IMG/VR virus record: IMGVR_UViG_3300027782_000238
Span: 1-31,996 of that record
Length of the DNA: 31,996 nucleotides
Origin: a virus
Strand: one strand, 5' to 3'
Of the stretch, positions 1-31,996 are shown piece by piece. Every line of letters begins with the position of its first letter. Within the stretch, counting starts at the first letter, position 1. The position numbers and the translations under genes are program-made. The notes below the pieces were generated by a model. That model searched no databases, was not told where the DNA came from, and saw only the letters and a program-made list of their open reading frames with translations.

Positions 1-99
1 CTCCTAGCAGAAAAACAAGCATACCTATTGGTAGCTTTCCTGTTCCTCCTGTACCTATGGATGGTAATAGGTCTGGTAACCAAGATTGGGAGAGCGTAA
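1..99 (+). CDS. 3' part of the gene that starts at 31661 (transmembrane C-terminus)
   Basis: Frame 1 from the first base is open for 32 codons and stops at TAA 97-99. It encodes a strongly hydrophobic stretch (AYLLVAFLFLLYLWMVIGLV) followed by a short basic tail (TKIGRA). It has no start of its own and is in phase with the frame that leaves the window at 31996, so I read the two pieces as one 144-residue gene across a circle junction. The stop overlaps the ATG of the next gene by one base (TAATG), the same coupling used elsewhere in this genome, for example at 12893 and 16198. This supports both the gene and the circular topology. Confidence 0.7.
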   Translation, partial: LLAEKQAYLLVAFLFLLYLWMVIGLVTKIGRA

Positions 100-269
100 T
101 GGGTTGGATTGCCGCTTGTGTTCTTTTGGTTATGCTCCTACCCTTATTGGGTACGTTATACGTAGACGTGTTGCAAACCAAGCATGAAGCTAAACAACAG
201 GTTGAGAAGGTCGAGAAACTGAGAAGGCAAGTTGAACAGCAACAAAAGAAAGGAAGCAAGGATGAGTAA
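99..269 (+). CDS. Small membrane protein with C-terminal coiled coil
   Basis: A 56-residue protein. Residues 3-25 form one hydrophobic segment (WIAACVLLVMLLPLLGTLYV). The rest is a charged, Gln/Lys/Glu-rich helix with heptad character, ending KKGSKDE. I choose the ATG at 99 because it overlaps the upstream stop as TAATG; an in-frame ATG at 57 would add a Gly/Asn-rich extension with no ribosome site. Its end overlaps the next gene by 8 bases. A single N-terminal membrane helix followed by a coiled coil, next to a holin candidate and the spanins, suggests a lysis or holin-accessory role. I do not recognise a named family. Confidence 0.65.
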   Translation: MGWIAACVLLVMLLPLLGTLYVDVLQTKHEAKQQVEKVEKLRRQVEQQQKKGSKDE

Positions 270-588
270 GCAACTAGAGAAAGATTCAGAGTACGACAAG
301 TTTGATACTGACCACGATGGTGTAGTGACAGACGCTGAATTGGCAAAGTCTGAGCGCATGATTCAGATTGAAAACCTTGACAAGATGGCTGACCAGCAGA
401 GGGTTATGGCTTGGGCGGCTTTAGGCGCACCCCCTGTTTTAATTGCATTCCTTGCTTCTGCTTGGGTAACGCTAGAAAAAGTCAATGCTTTGGCAGGACT
501 TACCACTACTTATTGTGCGGCTATGGGTACGATTGTTGTTGCTTTTATGGCGGCACAAGCCTATGTTCGTGGAAAGACAAGCGAATGA
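262..588 (+). CDS. Holin candidate with EF-hand calcium-binding loop
   Basis: A 108-residue protein with two parts. Residues 15-26 (DTDHDGVVTDAE) are a canonical 12-residue EF-hand loop: Asp at 1, 3 and 5, Gly at 6, a hydrophobic at 8, Thr at 9 and Glu at 12. After a short helix come two membrane segments at about 49-71 (Ala/Pro/Leu-rich) and 79-101. Small size, two helices and the position directly before Rz/Rz1 fit a class II holin. The EF-hand suggests that calcium could affect assembly or timing, which is inference. The ATG at 262 is preceded by AAAGGAAG; a TTG at 232 would add ten charged residues and is less likely. It ends in an ATGA overlap with the i-spanin gene. Confidence 0.7.
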   Translation: MSKQLEKDSEYDKFDTDHDGVVTDAELAKSERMIQIENLDKMADQQRVMAWAALGAPPVLIAFLASAWVTLEKVNALAGLTTTYCAAMGTIVVAFMAAQAYVRGKTSE

Positions 589-1058
589 GCCTGTTTAATC
601 CTTGGGTTTTGTTGGGTATCTTGATGGCGGTGCTATCTGCTGCTGGTAGTGGATACTATAAGGGTCAGCATGATGAGAATACCCGTCAACAAGTAGAGAT
701 TGCAGCCTTGAATGCCAAGGCTAGGGACACTGAGCAAGCAATGGCTAAAGTAGCTGAAACGTATGGACAAACACTAAGAAAGGCAAATGATGTTGCAAAG
801 GTTAAAGAAGCTAAGTTACGCAATGATGTTGTGTCTGGCAAGCTACGGCTGTTCATTCCTGTCAAAGCCCCCGACTGCCCCTTACAAGCCGCCCCAGATG
901 CCCCCGTTGCCGTTGGAGATAACAGCGGAGAAGCATCAGCCGAACTTACTGGACAGGCTTCTGAAGACCTTATCGCCATCGCCAGTGAAGGAGATGCCGC
1001 CATCAGAAAACTCAACTCCTGTATTGAATCCTACGAAACCTTGAGGAACATGAAATGA
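585..1058 (+). CDS. Rz: Rz-like inner-membrane spanin (i-spanin)
   Basis: A 157-residue protein with an N-terminal signal-anchor (residues about 6-24, WVLLGILMAVLSAAGSGYY). It is followed by a long periplasmic helix rich in Ala, Lys, Glu and Gln that can form a coiled coil (about 30-90), then a Ser/Ala/Pro-rich region and a C-terminal helix with Cys and Tyr. Length and topology match Rz proteins, which span the periplasm together with an outer-membrane lipoprotein and fuse the two membranes at lysis. The decisive evidence is the nested Rz1-type lipoprotein frame at 787-1044. The start overlaps the holin-candidate stop as ATGA; the end overlaps the next gene the same way. Confidence 0.85.
   Translation: MSLFNPWVLLGILMAVLSAAGSGYYKGQHDENTRQQVEIAALNAKARDTEQAMAKVAETYGQTLRKANDVAKVKEAKLRNDVVSGKLRLFIPVKAPDCPLQAAPDAPVAVGDNSGEASAELTGQASEDLIAIASEGDAAIRKLNSCIESYETLRNMK
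787..1044 (+). CDS. Rz1: Rz1-like outer-membrane spanin lipoprotein (o-spanin), nested in Rz
   Basis: An 85-residue frame lying wholly inside the i-spanin gene in another frame. It begins with a short basic N-terminus and a hydrophobic segment ending in LASYGC, a lipobox-type site with Cys at about residue 22. The mature part is very proline-rich (KPPTAPYKPPQMPPLPLE), as in Rz1 proteins. Embedded architecture, signal-peptidase II site and Pro content together are diagnostic of an o-spanin, although the lipobox is imperfect (Tyr at -2, Ser at -3). Two tandem ATGs (787, 790) can start it. The product should be lipidated, sit in the outer membrane and bind the C-terminus of the i-spanin. Confidence 0.85.
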   Translation: MMLQRLKKLSYAMMLCLASYGCSFLSKPPTAPYKPPQMPPLPLEITAEKHQPNLLDRLLKTLSPSPVKEMPPSENSTPVLNPTKP

Positions 1059-3792: not shown

Positions 3793-4017
3793 TTAATCCT
3801 GTGGTGGTGTGCAAGTGTGAATCGTGGTCAAGTCTGCTGTGCGTTTGCCGCATCGTGAACAGAAGTTTTGCTCTGTGCGCTGTGGTGGGGTGGTGTAGGT
3901 CTGCCCACAGTTGTGGCATTGCACAACGCCGTTAAGGGGATTCCACTTAACTGCACTTGCATCCGTGTAACCGCAACAAGGCAACGCCACAGGCTCTTGG
4001 CTTTCATCTTGTGTCAT
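3793..4017 (-). CDS. Double zinc-ribbon protein, Lar-like
   Basis: A 74-residue protein with two Cys clusters. The first is LPCCGYTDASAVKWN...VVQCHNCGQ, which resembles the small zinc ribbons of Lar-type restriction-alleviation proteins (paired Cys, a W or K strand, then CxxCG). The second is FCSRCGKRTADLTTIHTC, a short zinc ribbon with Cys, Cys, His, Cys often found at the end of small phage proteins. The start at 4017 overlaps the upstream stop as ATGA. Anti-restriction by similarity to Lar is a suggestion only, because such ribbons are generic; the zinc-binding call itself is solid. Confidence 0.65.
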   Translation of the reverse strand: MTQDESQEPVALPCCGYTDASAVKWNPLNGVVQCHNCGQTYTTPPQRTEQNFCSRCGKRTADLTTIHTCTPPQD

Positions 4018-4521: not shown

Positions 4522-4784
4522 TTACTAGCCGCCACTAACAGATCAAGTTCAAGGGACTTCATCTGTTCTTTAATGATGGTCATTTCCTGCTCCATCAATT
4601 CAAGTTTCTTCTCCATACGCTTTCTGGTCATGACCTCGCCATGAATCCAGCCGATAGCAACGGCATCATTGGCAACCTTGTCAATGAGTTGAATGATCTC
4701 GTTACGGCTCATAAAGCCGCCAGCAATGCCTTTAGCTGGCGCTATGCGGTTTATCAATTCGGTGATTTCTGATGCGATGCTCAT
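4518..4784 (-). CDS. Helical coiled-coil protein of unknown function
   Basis: An 88-residue protein, all helical by eye. Residues 1-55 contain IASEITELINRIAP and NEIIQLIDKVANDAVAIGWI; the remainder is a charged coiled coil (KRMEKKLELMEQEMTIIKEQ). I choose ATG 4784 because it makes an ATGA overlap with the tiny membrane gene upstream; an ATG at 4796 would lie inside that gene without a ribosome site. Its stop overlaps the next gene as ATGA. No family recognised; the coiled coil suggests an oligomer or a protein-binding role. Confidence 0.65.
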   Translation of the reverse strand: MSIASEITELINRIAPAKGIAGGFMSRNEIIQLIDKVANDAVAIGWIHGEVMTRKRMEKKLELMEQEMTIIKEQMKSLELDLLVAASK

Positions 4785-12406: not shown

Positions 12407-12893
12407 ATGGTTGAATGAATACCAAAAATTTTCTGCGACTCCTTGGAGTCCTACAACATTGAAACCATCGGAAGAACAGCAGTTTCGCAGTTGGCTGCAG
12501 GGAACTCAACTTTTTAACTCTATTAAGTCAGACATTGCGGCTGAACAAAAGATGCCTGTTAATAAGTTAGACAACCAGCGAGTTACAGAGATGATTCTTG
12601 AATCTCCTGACTATGACTACAGGGGAGCATGGAAAGCAGGAATAAAAGAAACTATCAGTCCTTATGACAATAGACCGCACTTTCCATCGTCTACCAAAAC
12701 AGGACAAATGCTAAAAGACCCAACTCATCCAACGGCATGGAAAGAGTTTTTTATGCGTCAGTATGGGACTGACCCTGATGCAATGGGACTTGACACTGTA
12801 GAAAAAGCAAAAAACTGGAGTCTTTCAAAACAAAAGGTAGAAACACCTTTTTATAAAGACCCATTTTCTGCACCTGACTACACAATCGAATAA
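12399..12893 (+). CDS. Conserved phage protein of unknown function between terminase genes
   Basis: A 164-residue protein. Two segments look like a widespread but uncharacterised phage protein: LKPSEEQQFRSWLQGT near the N-terminus, and DYDYRGAWKAGI followed by a HFPSSTKTGQ...DPTHPTAWKE block. The rest is hydrophilic. Its place between the terminase subunits and its TAATG coupling to the large subunit suggest a packaging or head function. Codon use is more AT-rich than in the small terminase gene just before. I can give no biochemical role. Confidence 0.7.
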   Translation: MTEWLNEYQKFSATPWSPTTLKPSEEQQFRSWLQGTQLFNSIKSDIAAEQKMPVNKLDNQRVTEMILESPDYDYRGAWKAGIKETISPYDNRPHFPSSTKTGQMLKDPTHPTAWKEFFMRQYGTDPDAMGLDTVEKAKNWSLSKQKVETPFYKDPFSAPDYTIE

Positions 12894-14152
12894 TGGCTGA
12901 CCTTAACTTTGCGCTACTGCCTTGGCAGCAGGAAGTCTATGCCGACAAGACGAGGTTCAAGGTTGTCGTTGCGGGTCGGCGATGCGGTAAGTCAAGACTT
13001 GCGGTTACCACTCTATTAATAGAGGGTTTGAGTTGCCCTGCAGGGTCTGCAGTTCTTTATGTTGCCCCGACTCAGGGACAGGCTAGACAGATTGTGTGGG
13101 ATGTACTGTTGGATGTTGGTCGGGAGATTATTCAGAGCAGCCATGTGAATAACATGGAAGTTACTTTGATTAACGGCGCAAAGATATATGTTCGGGGGAG
13201 TGACAGACCTGATACTTTGCGAGGAGTCTCCCTTACTTACGCTGTACTGGATGAGGTAGCTGACATTAAGCCTGAGACTTGGGAACAGGTAATACGAGCG
13301 TCTTTGTCAGACAAGAAGGGTAAAGCCATGTTTATCGGTACACCCAAGGGTAGGAACTGGTTCTACGACTTGTATAACTTAGGGCAAGAGGAGACAGATT
13401 CTGACTGGAAAAGTTGGCATTTCACCACCAAAGATAATCCTTTAATTGACCCTAGTGAAATCGAAAGTGCAAAGAAGACCCTTTCCAGCTTTGCTTTCAA
13501 GCAAGAGTATATGGCATCTTTTTCTAATGCTGGCTCAGATGTATTCAAAGAAGAATGGATTAAGTACGGGGAAGAACCTGAGTATGGTTCTTACTTTGTA
13601 GCTGTTGACTTGGCTGGATTTGAGGAAGTAGCTAGACAGGCGGCTAACTCTAAGAAAAGGCTAGACCAGACTGCTATTGCTGTGGTTAAGGTGACTGATG
13701 ATGGCAAATGGTTTGTCAAAGAGATTGTTTTTGGGCGTTGGGACATACGGGAGACTGCAGCGACTATTCTGCTAAAGATGCGGGAATACCGACCTTTGAG
13801 TGTTGGAATTGAGCGAGGTGCGTTAAAAAACGCTGTTTTGCCTTATTTGAGTGACCTAATGAGGAAAAATAATGTATATTCCCACATAGTTGACTTAACG
13901 CATGGCAACAGGAAAAAGACTGACAGAATTATCTGGAGTCTCCAAGGAAGGTTTGAGCATGGGCGTATTGTGCTGAACTCTGAGGAAGATTGGGATGAAT
14001 TCAAAGATCAACTCTTGATGTTTCCCGCCCAAGGTGTTCACGATGACTTGCCTGATGCTCTTTCCTACATTGACCAACTCGCTGTTACCTCATACTTCCA
14101 AGATGACCAAGAAGATGAGTGGCAACCGCTAGATATTATTTCGGGGATATAA
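12893..14152 (+). CDS. terL: Terminase large subunit
   Basis: A 419-residue DNA-packaging motor with both domains. ATPase: Walker A AGRRCGKS (27-34), Walker B YAVLDE (116-121) with catalytic Glu121, and coupling motif GTPKG (149-153). Nuclease (RNase H-like): YFVAVDLAG (Asp239), VGIERG (Glu307) and VHDDLPDALSY (Asp384, Asp385, Asp388). It translocates DNA into the prohead at the portal and cuts the concatemer. Length is short-normal for the family, with no apparent extra domain. The start overlaps the upstream stop by one base; the portal gene follows with no gap. Confidence 0.95.
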   Translation: MADLNFALLPWQQEVYADKTRFKVVVAGRRCGKSRLAVTTLLIEGLSCPAGSAVLYVAPTQGQARQIVWDVLLDVGREIIQSSHVNNMEVTLINGAKIYVRGSDRPDTLRGVSLTYAVLDEVADIKPETWEQVIRASLSDKKGKAMFIGTPKGRNWFYDLYNLGQEETDSDWKSWHFTTKDNPLIDPSEIESAKKTLSSFAFKQEYMASFSNAGSDVFKEEWIKYGEEPEYGSYFVAVDLAGFEEVARQAANSKKRLDQTAIAVVKVTDDGKWFVKEIVFGRWDIRETAATILLKMREYRPLSVGIERGALKNAVLPYLSDLMRKNNVYSHIVDLTHGNRKKTDRIIWSLQGRFEHGRIVLNSEEDWDEFKDQLLMFPAQGVHDDLPDALSYIDQLAVTSYFQDDQEDEWQPLDIISGI

Positions 14153-28320: not shown

Positions 28321-30021
28321 ATGGCAAGCGAAATCTTAGGATTGTTCACTACTCCCGAACAGTACCAACAAAATCAGTTAGCACAGTTTCAGAGTCGTGC
28401 GGCTCAAGAAGTTCCAGTAAATCCTTTTCAACAAGCGGCTTTAGGTGCTAGGACTGCTGGTTATCAGTTGGGTCAAGCTATTGGCGGTGCTTTGGGTGGT
28501 GAAGACCCACAGTTAAAGCTGATTTCACAGCGTCAGCAAATCCTTGGGATGATTGACCCAACGAACCCTGATTCTTATGCTCAAGGTATTCAGATGGCAT
28601 TGCAAACTGGAGATACTCAAACTGCATTTATCTTACGCAATGAGATGATGAGGGCTAAACAGCAGACTCAACAAGATAGGGTAAGTGAAATGCAATATCA
28701 AGATGCTGCACTTCAACGTGGTCTGAATATAAAACAACGTGGCATGGAAGCGGCAGCATTAAGTGTAGCTAATGGCATTGACCCTGAAACTGGCTTGAGA
28801 GGTAAGTCAATATTGAATGAGCAAGGTGAGGTTATTGATACCCAAGCACTAAAGCCATTGATTGACCCAATAACCAACAAATTTAATCAGGATGTTGCGA
28901 ACACATTAATTTCTCAGTATGGGCAAGTTGGTGCAAATATTGTTAAACAAAGAATTGAGGGTGTTCAAGGTGTTCAATCATTGCAAACTCAAGAACTTGC
29001 TAGACAACTGTTTAATGAAGATGGTACTAGAAACCCTGAAATTGAGAAAAAATTGTCAGTTACTGTTGAGGGTCGTGACATTCTAAAGAAACTTGCGCCA
29101 GAAACTAAGGAACTCAAGAAAGGCGAAAAACTGCTTGAAAGACAACCAGATGGAACATGGAGTCTCATTACTCCAGCGGGTCAACCAGCACAAACAGTTA
29201 CATCTGATAATGCAGTTCAAGCATTGATAGCTGGTAGGGCAATACATCCAAGTGTTTTGCCTTACGCACAACAACTTGCTAAGAACTTTGCAAATCTTGA
29301 TTTTGAAGATCAAAATGTCTTGATGGAAAAATTGACAAGACTAAATAGCGATGCAAAAAACACAGAATCTAGTATGAATTTGAGACAAGATATTTTTGAG
29401 TCCAATCAGACTTTTAGAAGTGTCATGGCAAATAGTTCGGCTGGAATGAGGGAATTACAAAAACAACTTATCCAACTCAAAATCGATCAAGCAAAACAAG
29501 CTCAAGCTAAAGCCGCCGATGGTAAAGAAATTAAAATTGGTGAGTCAACTAAACTTTCAGATCAATCTGTAAAGGTTGATAAACTCGTTGATATATCACA
29601 AAAATTTCAGCCTAGATTTGCTGGCTATCCAACTAATGCCGCTGGTGATGTTGCTGTATGGGCGGCTAGTAAGTCAAGTGACCCTAATGATGTTGCTTTA
29701 GTCCAATGGTGGCAGAATTATCAAGAACACGTTAACACAGTCAGAAATGATTTGTTTGGTGCGGCTTTGACTGCACCAGAGAAAGCTGAGTTTGAAAAAG
29801 CAATGGTTACCAAGGGTATGAATCCCACTCAGGCACAAACTAACCTAAGACGTCAAGCAGATGCAGCTTTAAAAGCATATGACAAACTTGATAAGACTTT
29901 AAGATCTCAGGGTTACAGTAGATCTGCTTTGGACATTTTGAAGCCAGCAGGATTTGGAGAAACACCTCCAGCAGAAGTGCCTGTTGGTGTAACTGTAACT
30001 GTTAAGAAGAAGGGTGGCTAA
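28321..30021 (+). CDS. Putative internal virion / DNA ejection protein 2
   Basis: A 566-residue, mainly helical protein rich in Gln, Ala, Lys and Glu. It begins EILGLFTTPEQYQQNQLAQF then QSRAAQEVPVNPFQ, a start shared by ejection-type proteins of marine and freshwater podoviruses. It has long coiled segments (MNLRQDIFESNQTFRSVMAN; RELQKQLIQLKIDQAKQAQA) and a C-terminal Pro/Val/Lys tail (PPAEVPVGVTVTVKKKGG). AAGGAGAAAAG precedes the ATG. It probably forms part of the trans-envelope conduit with its two neighbours. Confidence 0.7.
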   Translation: MASEILGLFTTPEQYQQNQLAQFQSRAAQEVPVNPFQQAALGARTAGYQLGQAIGGALGGEDPQLKLISQRQQILGMIDPTNPDSYAQGIQMALQTGDTQTAFILRNEMMRAKQQTQQDRVSEMQYQDAALQRGLNIKQRGMEAAALSVANGIDPETGLRGKSILNEQGEVIDTQALKPLIDPITNKFNQDVANTLISQYGQVGANIVKQRIEGVQGVQSLQTQELARQLFNEDGTRNPEIEKKLSVTVEGRDILKKLAPETKELKKGEKLLERQPDGTWSLITPAGQPAQTVTSDNAVQALIAGRAIHPSVLPYAQQLAKNFANLDFEDQNVLMEKLTRLNSDAKNTESSMNLRQDIFESNQTFRSVMANSSAGMRELQKQLIQLKIDQAKQAQAKAADGKEIKIGESTKLSDQSVKVDKLVDISQKFQPRFAGYPTNAAGDVAVWAASKSSDPNDVALVQWWQNYQEHVNTVRNDLFGAALTAPEKAEFEKAMVTKGMNPTQAQTNLRRQADAALKAYDKLDKTLRSQGYSRSALDILKPAGFGETPPAEVPVGVTVTVKKKGG

Positions 30022-30022
30022 C

Positions 30023-31651
30023 ATGGATAAATTCACTTATGAGGTAAATATACCCAATAGCGGTGTTTATGTGGTTGAGTCAGATCGTGAATTGACTAAT
30101 GCACAAGCATATCAATATGCTTTGCAACAAGTATCTCCTACTGTTGTTACAAATCAACAAAAAACTTCTCAAGTACCACAACCTCAAAGACCAATGTCTC
30201 GTGGTGAAGTTTTAACTGGTGCAGTTATGAACTTTCCAAGTTCTTTGTATGAACAAGCATCTAATGTGGTTGGGGCTATTACAGACCCTATACAAGTTGT
30301 TAGAGATTTGGGTACTTTGTTCGTGGGTGCAACATCAAAGGTTCTTGGTGAGCCTTTGTTTGAGTCTCAAATAGGCAAGCAAATGAGACTTAAAGGAGAA
30401 AAATCTGTTGATCAAGTTGGACAGCAACTTATAAATGAATATGGAAGCGTTGAAGCCGCAAAAAGGACACTTGCTACAGACCCTGCTAAAGTTTTATCCG
30501 ACATATCCTTAATATTTACTGGTGGCGCTAGTCTTTTACCTAAAGCTAGTGCAGCATCAAAAATATTGTCAACAGCCGCAAAGGTTACAGACCCTTTAAG
30601 AATAGCCGCCGCACCAATAGCCTTGGCATCTAAATCTGTTGCTCCAACTTTAGGTATGACTACAGGTACTGGTGCAATGGCTATTCAAGAAGCCTATCAA
30701 GCTGGCAAACAAGGCGGTGTAAAGGCTAAATCTTTCACAGAAAACTTGCGTGATAAGGGTGACCAACTTCAAGTTCTTGAGGATACAAAGTCTAACCTAC
30801 AAGCAATGATTCAAGAACAACAGAATTTATATCGTTCTGGCATGGTTGATGTTAAAAATGATAAATCTGTTTTAAACTTTACTGATATAGATGATTCATT
30901 AGGAAAAGCGGCAGATAGGGTTTACTATAACGGCGTGATTCGTAGTGAAGATGCAGCAGGGTATGTTGCAAAAACACAAAAAATTATTAATGATTGGAGG
31001 TATAGAGATCCAGCACAGTTTCATACTCCTGAAGGTTTGGATGTACTCAAACAAAAAATCTATGATGATGTTTTATCTAATATCCCAATAAATCAAAAAA
31101 GCTCAATTGGAATCATTGGGGATATTTACAACTCTGTAAAGTCAACCATTCAAAAGCAAGCCCCTACTTATGCAGAAACAATGAAGGCTTATGCCAATAC
31201 AGCAGAGCAAGTTCGTGAGATTGAAAGGTCATTGTCTCAAGGTAAAAAGGCAAGTGCCGATGCTGGTTTGCGTAAACTTCAAACTGTATTGCGTGATAAC
31301 GCAAGCACAAACTATGGGCAACGAGTTAACTTAGTCAATCAACTTGAAGCTACATCACCTAGTTTGGGTGGTGGTATACCCATCAAGCCAGCACTTGCTG
31401 GTCAGGCTTTAAGTAAATGGACTCCTAGAGGTATTCAAGCTGCTGGTACTGTTGGAACTGCTGGACTTCTTAGCCAAGTCTCAAATCCATTAACAGGACT
31501 TTATTTGGCAGGGTCATCACCCCGATTAGTTGGTGAAGCTGCTTACCTAACTGGTCAGGGTAGTAGACAACTTGGTAAGGTTACTGGTCTATTCCCTGAA
31601 CTTGACTACCCATTGATGTTTAATCTGTTGTCAAAAACACAGACTGAATAG
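30023..31651 (+). CDS. Putative internal virion / DNA ejection protein 3
   Basis: A 542-residue protein. I choose ATG 30023, one base after the upstream stop, with AGGG before it; a GTG at 30014 is possible. The N-terminal 40 residues form a small beta/helix module (FTYEVNIPNSGVYVVESDRE then LTNAQAYQYALQQVS). Then come a Gln/Pro linker, hydrophobic helices (ISLIFTGGASLLPKASAASK; LRIAAAPIALASKSVAPTLG) and a long charged helical region, ending in Gly/Leu-rich segments (IQAAGTVGTAGLLSQVSNPL). The membrane-active middle and last position in the late operon fit an ejection protein. No transglycosylase motif is evident. Its TAG is followed in frame by the gene at 31661. Confidence 0.7.
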   Translation: MDKFTYEVNIPNSGVYVVESDRELTNAQAYQYALQQVSPTVVTNQQKTSQVPQPQRPMSRGEVLTGAVMNFPSSLYEQASNVVGAITDPIQVVRDLGTLFVGATSKVLGEPLFESQIGKQMRLKGEKSVDQVGQQLINEYGSVEAAKRTLATDPAKVLSDISLIFTGGASLLPKASAASKILSTAAKVTDPLRIAAAPIALASKSVAPTLGMTTGTGAMAIQEAYQAGKQGGVKAKSFTENLRDKGDQLQVLEDTKSNLQAMIQEQQNLYRSGMVDVKNDKSVLNFTDIDDSLGKAADRVYYNGVIRSEDAAGYVAKTQKIINDWRYRDPAQFHTPEGLDVLKQKIYDDVLSNIPINQKSSIGIIGDIYNSVKSTIQKQAPTYAETMKAYANTAEQVREIERSLSQGKKASADAGLRKLQTVLRDNASTNYGQRVNLVNQLEATSPSLGGGIPIKPALAGQALSKWTPRGIQAAGTVGTAGLLSQVSNPLTGLYLAGSSPRLVGEAAYLTGQGSRQLGKVTGLFPELDYPLMFNLLSKTQTE

Positions 31652-31660
31652 GAGTACGAA

Positions 31661-31996
31661 ATTGACCCAATCTCTATTTGTCTTCTTGCGGCTGGCTTGG
31701 TCAAAAACATCCAAGCTGGCTGTGACCTTTACAAGCAAGCTAAAGAGTCTTTTGTTGAAATCAGGAACACTGCTAATGAAGTTGTCGCTATTGGCAAAGA
31801 AGTTAAAGGATTTTGGGGTTCATTGCTTAAACTATTTGGCGGTAGTTTCAAGCCTGAAGCTACAAAGTCTGTGGCAAAAGCTAAAAGGTCTGACTACGTT
31901 GCTGTTGACGAAACTCAAGTCAAAGCTGACATCGTTAAGAACCTGAGTGAGTTTTTCAAGCTACAAGAACAGTTAGAAGCGCATATCAGGGAGTCA
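31661..31996 (+). CDS. Small membrane-anchored protein, 5' part (continues at base 1), ATT start candidate
   Basis: This open frame reads Y-E-I-D-P-I-S-I-C-L-L-A-A-G-L and on through a helical, Lys/Glu-rich protein to the last base of the window. The stop of the preceding gene (TAG, 31649-31651) is in the same frame, so the start must lie downstream of it. There is no ATG, GTG or TTG near the ribosome binding site AGGAG (31650-31654). The codon six bases after that site is ATT (31661), giving (M)DPISICLLAAGLVKN. From ATT to base 31996 there are exactly 112 codons, and the frame continues without a stop at base 1 for 32 more codons, adding a transmembrane segment (total 144 residues). Function is unknown; its place beside the lysis genes and its C-terminal membrane anchor suggest a role at the membrane. 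A TTG at 31662 opens another frame, but that product is low-complexity Leu/Lys/Ser and not convincing. Confidence 0.7.
   Translation, partial: MDPISICLLAAGLVKNIQAGCDLYKQAKESFVEIRNTANEVVAIGKEVKGFWGSLLKLFGGSFKPEATKSVAKAKRSDYVAVDETQVKADIVKNLSEFFKLQEQLEAHIRES

Follow-up and report, generated by a model that had tools for sequence, protein, structure and literature searches.

The two ends of the window, as we call the whole stretch of 31,996 bases analysed here, which is an entire virus record, lie within one and the same late gene, X, and the start codon of X overlaps that of a second open reading frame, Y, in the +1 frame. We consider it likely that the following explanation holds as a whole: the assembly stopped on both sides inside X, on a map that is circular, leaving a gap of 255 nucleotides, and X and Y share an overlapping start. 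We read the seam between the window ends as a gap in the assembly of a genome whose map is circular, which is in itself ordinary. X and Y look like overlapping genes with a common ribosome-binding site and the stronger start codon on Y, as judged from sequence comparisons. The features concerned are as follows.

31650 to 31654, plus strand: Shine-Dalgarno sequence AGGAG, common to X and Y, at a distance of 6 nt from ATT and of 7 nt from TTG.
31661 to 31996, plus strand: 5' part of gene X, 112 codons from ATT, running into 255 nt (85 codons) absent from the window.
1 to 99, plus strand: 3' part of gene X, its last 32 codons, with a C-terminal hydrophobic (membrane) helix and the stop codon TAA at 97-99.
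31662 to 31946, plus strand: ORF Y, in the +1 frame of X, from the TTG within ATTG, 94 codons plus stop.

A recount confirmed that the frame opened by the ATT at 31661 stays open for exactly 112 codons until it exits the window at 31996, and that base 1 extends it by 32 codons, which add the hydrophobic helix and end with a TAA overlapping the ATG at 99-101 (TAATG). Upstream, the preceding in-frame stop is the TAG at 31649-31651, with no ATG, GTG or TTG in between. From this continuity an earlier note had concluded that the ends abut and that the genome is complete at 31,996 bp. When the joined 144-residue protein was used as a query against IMG/VR, 572 relatives were retrieved, and in most of the best 80 of them the first-pass match ended at residue 112, which the final codon of the window encodes, an outcome that the note itself had listed against its reading. 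The matches end there because the homologues continue with sequence absent from the window: in translated relatives, EEKARTVV...RKERER follows residue 112, after which the sequence of the window resumes at LLAEKQAY. The distance between the two flanks is exactly 255 nt, i.e. 85 conserved codons, in all 72 IMG/VR loci that have both. Read from these relatives, a gap between the window ends is almost certain, and it is most simply seen as an assembly break. The seam is in frame because the missing piece is a whole number of codons, 255 being a multiple of three. For two open ends of one gene separated by a gap of unknown length, this amounts to a coincidence of about one in three, not the improbable event for which it had been taken, and an in-frame seam alone is no proof of a closed genome. 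The 144-residue protein is therefore an artefact of the joining, the actual X having about 229 residues, and about 255 nt (85 codons) of its conserved core are absent from the record.

That the ends truly abut, with a 31,996-bp circle carrying a 144-codon gene as a natural variant of X from which 255 nt were deleted in frame, seems to us very improbable. The continuity of the frame, the membrane helix and the TAATG coupling would all be accounted for, but all 72 relatives have the 255 nt, and a search with a degenerate pattern of the joined form gave no match among IMG/VR contigs. Such a deletion would also take out the core of X, as the most conserved stretch of the gene falls within the missing piece. 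Finally, assembled circles usually retain an overlap of their ends, as six relatives do, whereas the window has no terminal repeat or overlap longer than 3 nt.

As for the circular map, that part of the earlier proposal holds insofar as both window ends lie in one gene and are neighbours on the map of the relatives; the map is not closed, since 255 nt are absent. We regard the circular order as highly probable. One relative of 32,190 bp (G006) runs continuously through the seam of the window and has its own break inside the terminase gene, with a 35-nt end overlap, while the window is uninterrupted there.

12893 to 14152, plus strand: terminase large subunit (terL).

Altogether, six X-bearing relatives close on themselves, with overlaps of 35, 123, 123, 127, 127 and 228 nt: in addition to G006, they are G029 (127 nt, in the portal gene), G030 (123 nt, near 19.8 kb of the window), G012 (228 nt), G037 (123 nt) and G042 (127 nt). 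No exact end-to-end overlap was found in the remaining contigs tested. As the break points fall at different places of a common map, this map must be circular; yet assemblers circularise genomes other than circularly permuted (headful) ones too. The phage agrees with the SU10 type of tailed phages in having an SU10-like portal (PF23899, E 1e-18) and an SU10-like adaptor (PF24175, E 2e-12), each match exceeding the cut-off.

Breaks inside X recur. Among the right-hand contig ends of relatives, 15 of 72 fall 336-700 nt into X, nine of these at 608-649 nt, and base 1 of the window is nucleotide 592 of the gene. A 35.3-kb relative (G039) likewise breaks inside X, with a 127-nt shared block. Among the closest relatives X is about 90% identical and its flanks diverge, in an ungapped comparison of relatives that had been picked by X. 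A conserved stretch between variable flanks would fork a short-read assembly graph, which is probably the cause of the break here. More generally, a conserved gene amid variable neighbours can repeatedly break assemblies at one spot.

Joining the ends restores the gene order late operon - lysis, as had been noted earlier, with the following genes around X.

30014 to 31651, plus strand: late gene upstream of X, ending with the TAG at 31649-31651.
99 to 269, plus strand: 56-residue membrane protein, TAATG-coupled to X.
262 to 588, plus strand: 108-residue protein with an EF-hand-like DTDHDGVVTDAEL near its N-terminus (EF-hand match below cut-off) and two hydrophobic stretches.
585 to 1058, plus strand: Rz-like inner spanin (PF03245 above cut-off).

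The spanin gene downstream of X confirms that lysis genes come after it. By position and sequence, the 262-588 protein may be holin-like. The spanin gene itself seems to harbour a nested Rz1 outer spanin: its +1 frame holds an ORF of 85 codons (787-1044, plus strand) that has a lipobox-like LASYGC motif and is Pro-rich in part. Elsewhere, 136 nt of the window (3870-4005) are 97.8% identical to positions 4525-4660 of locus L093, on a 50.5-kb contig (G025) that is otherwise mostly different; the shared stretch falls in the region of a small minus-strand ORF (3793-4017) with a zinc-ribbon-like product.

X is the last gene of the late operon, with the lysis genes coming next, and would encode a helical protein that is about 229 residues long and carries a hydrophobic helix at its C-terminus. 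Its structure model consists of long helices (mean pLDDT 77) and has significant matches to unnamed phage proteins only. Neither X nor Y matches a Pfam family above cut-off or has a convincing sequence match in the PDB, and the PHROGs found are weak and unnamed. Homologues of X, none with an assigned function, are encoded by uncultured Caudovirales phages (among them A0A6J5N4E1). The Manatee Spring records MW202462 and MW202484, both circular entries in GenBank, encode near full-length ones of about 30% identity, in which Y is absent as a long frame and the annotated X begins further in. No X relative was confirmed in GTDB contigs, and the phage collection searched holds no isolated phage carrying X.

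The start codon of X is unusual and conserved. It is ATT in all 79 close relatives, in which codons 2-12 vary synonymously only, and in 78 of 78 IMG/VR homologues of a further search, down to about 61% identity. Loci selected by other genes gave the same picture, with ATT in 79 and ATC in one of 80. In three homologues a stop codon immediately precedes the ATT. Among 333 distinct homologues, X starts with ATT in 238, GTG in 94, ATC in one and ATG in none, and the GTG starts belong to the more distant ones. A pattern search that permitted either ATG or GTG as the start of X yielded 84 contigs, all with GTG. In the ATT-type set, a Shine-Dalgarno sequence is present in 195 of 204 genes, mostly at a spacing of 6-7 nt; a clear one is often absent in genes of the GTG clade. 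Two other starts were considered and rejected. The TTG at codon 13 (31697) is not invariant as a start, and codons 2-12 before it change only synonymously. As for a start in frame 0 upstream of the ATT, a stop is usually 0-5 codons away, and none of the 204 genes has a canonical start within 10 codons.

In every one of the 333 distinct homologues, a start codon in the +1 frame lies at position +1 (ATTG), -2 (ATGTG or GTGTG) or -5 relative to the start of X, i.e. all have two overlapping start codons in different frames a few bases apart, as expected of a dual-frame initiation site. GTG homologues mostly have ATGTG or GTGTG, so that Y opens 2 nt upstream of X; in six of them it does so at -5. 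The sole ATC homologue (L239), in which the TTG is lost, has an ATG for the Y frame at -5. One locus that seemed to lack the arrangement (L386) was dismissed as an exception, as it has an apparent one-base shift in the start region. In nearly all arrangements the usually stronger start codon is on Y and the weaker one on X; the exceptions are four genes with GTGTG and another five in which GTG stands at -5, where the start codon of Y is no stronger than that of X. In GTG-start subclades such as those of L447, L448, L473, L485 and L496, Y has 8-33 codons and the ATGTG or GTGTG start is retained, a hint that such starts might be of importance even where Y is short.

The Y frame was compared with a null model in which X was resampled synonymously, retaining its protein and the codon usage of the family, for 56 representatives less than 80% identical to each other; they are related, the counts are not independent draws, and the null takes no account of phylogeny. 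In 51 of the 56 representatives, Y runs for 70 codons or more without a stop, as against 2.7 expected. Stops in the +1 frame numbered 2 against 62 expected in codons 1-30, 10 against 76 in codons 31-60, 16 against 53 in codons 61-90 and 85 against 91 in codons 91-120. In codons 1-46 of 23 representatives there were none, with 45.8 expected. The +2 frame of X has no comparable deficit over that region, and 15 other genes of the window, taken as a control, had 322 stops for 325 expected. These comparisons show that constraint keeps the Y frame open. Y can nevertheless be lost or truncated, as indicated by the five representatives in which it has only 12-41 codons; some subclades have 8-41 codons with the overlapping start kept. 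Constraint on its residues is weak: the first-position N/S ratio is 0.44 in the overlap versus 0.73 in a control stretch, and differences at four-fold third bases are 0.286 versus 0.363. The charge of Y equals that expected from the codons of X, and Ser and hydrophobic residues are above the null. Low synonymous divergence of X relative to other genes had also been considered as a sign of dual constraint. It was withdrawn because the relatives had been selected by similarity to X itself; in loci selected by an endolysin or tail gene, the dS of X is ordinary.

An open +1 frame as a mere by-product of the amino acids and codon usage of X is most unlikely, the null retaining both. The composition of Y does mostly track that of X, and the sequences are related and not fully independent; against this, all 56 representatives are below 80% identity, the deficit stops near codon 90 inside the same genes, and the 15 other genes are at expectation. 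A less improbable, though still unlikely, alternative is that Y is not a working protein and that its UUG or AUG start is a decoy that limits initiation on X, the open frame sparing the message an early stop, restart and exposure. This would fit the survival of overlapping starts where Y has just 12-33 codons, the weak constraint on Y residues, a charge identical to the null and an X start that is always weak. Nevertheless, the openness spans about 90 codons with a sharp end, which is beyond the needs of a decoy, and the constraint on Y residues, weak as it is, exceeds that of the control. We favour Y as a frame that is probably translated. As for its role, the best candidate, albeit a doubtful one, is a small protein, basic and helical, whose synthesis would fall late, close to lysis. 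Its structure model is one long helix, which is weak evidence for a basic, low-complexity sequence. In a test for a small membrane lysis protein, no clear transmembrane segment was found in Y: the highest 19-residue hydropathy is 1.19 in L002, and values exceed 1.6 in just 3 of the 27 relatives shown.

Under the explanation that we favour, assembly of this single phage contig halted on either side inside late gene X, with the loss of 255 nt (85 codons), and a single Shine-Dalgarno sequence would position the ribosome on ATTG, where initiation could take place at AUU for X or one base later at UUG for Y. X would then start with ATT because its start codon overlaps that of Y. In more distant relatives the pair reads ATGTG, with ATG for Y and GTG for X. 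As the start of Y is the stronger one, we infer that competition between start codons yields more Y than X from one site, i.e. a Y:X ratio above 1 late in infection.

Overprinted genes are known in phages, for instance Rz1 within Rz and E within D of phiX174; each of these starts at a site of its own inside the host gene. As in those cases, Y would add a second protein to an older gene by way of its +1 frame, but it differs from them in that it begins within a few bases of the start of X. A conserved AUU start is also known for infC, where it is used for feedback by IF3. Unlike that of infC, the AUU of X accompanies an overlapping UUG, and GTG replaces it where Y starts upstream. Two-frame initiation at one site has been described in only a few bacterial cases: E. 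coli ribosomes can initiate in both frames at AUGUG and GUGUG (pqiA, tamA, narQ; Kohl et al. 2022, PMC9841429), and rnpA-rpmH of Thermus is an earlier example (PMC9841429). The X/Y arrangement shares with the E. coli sites overlapping start codons in different frames behind one ribosome-binding site, and the same motifs occur in the GTG clade; unlike them, it has been retained in hundreds of phage sequences, together with a second frame that is long. The AUUG form of the window, AUU and UUG offset by one, does not appear in the text of PMC9841429. Like X and Y, rnpA and rpmH are two genes in different frames with a single initiation site, but theirs is AUGGAUG with two AUG codons, and they are cellular genes of known function, the inner one fully nested (PMC9841429).

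The AUU start escapes gene callers limited to ATG, GTG and TTG as start codons, and such callers likely drop one of the two frames. There is a good, though not overwhelming, case that ambiguous initiation is in conserved use among these phages, also in an AUUG form that we did not find described in the literature searched. If so, competition between start codons would become directly testable, with overlapping starts in 333 distinct sequences and a long second frame in most of them. It is reasonably likely that a large family of environmental phages, many from freshwater, would make two proteins from a single initiation site, one in each of two frames, in a ratio set by how strong the start codons are (UUG over AUU, AUG over GUG).
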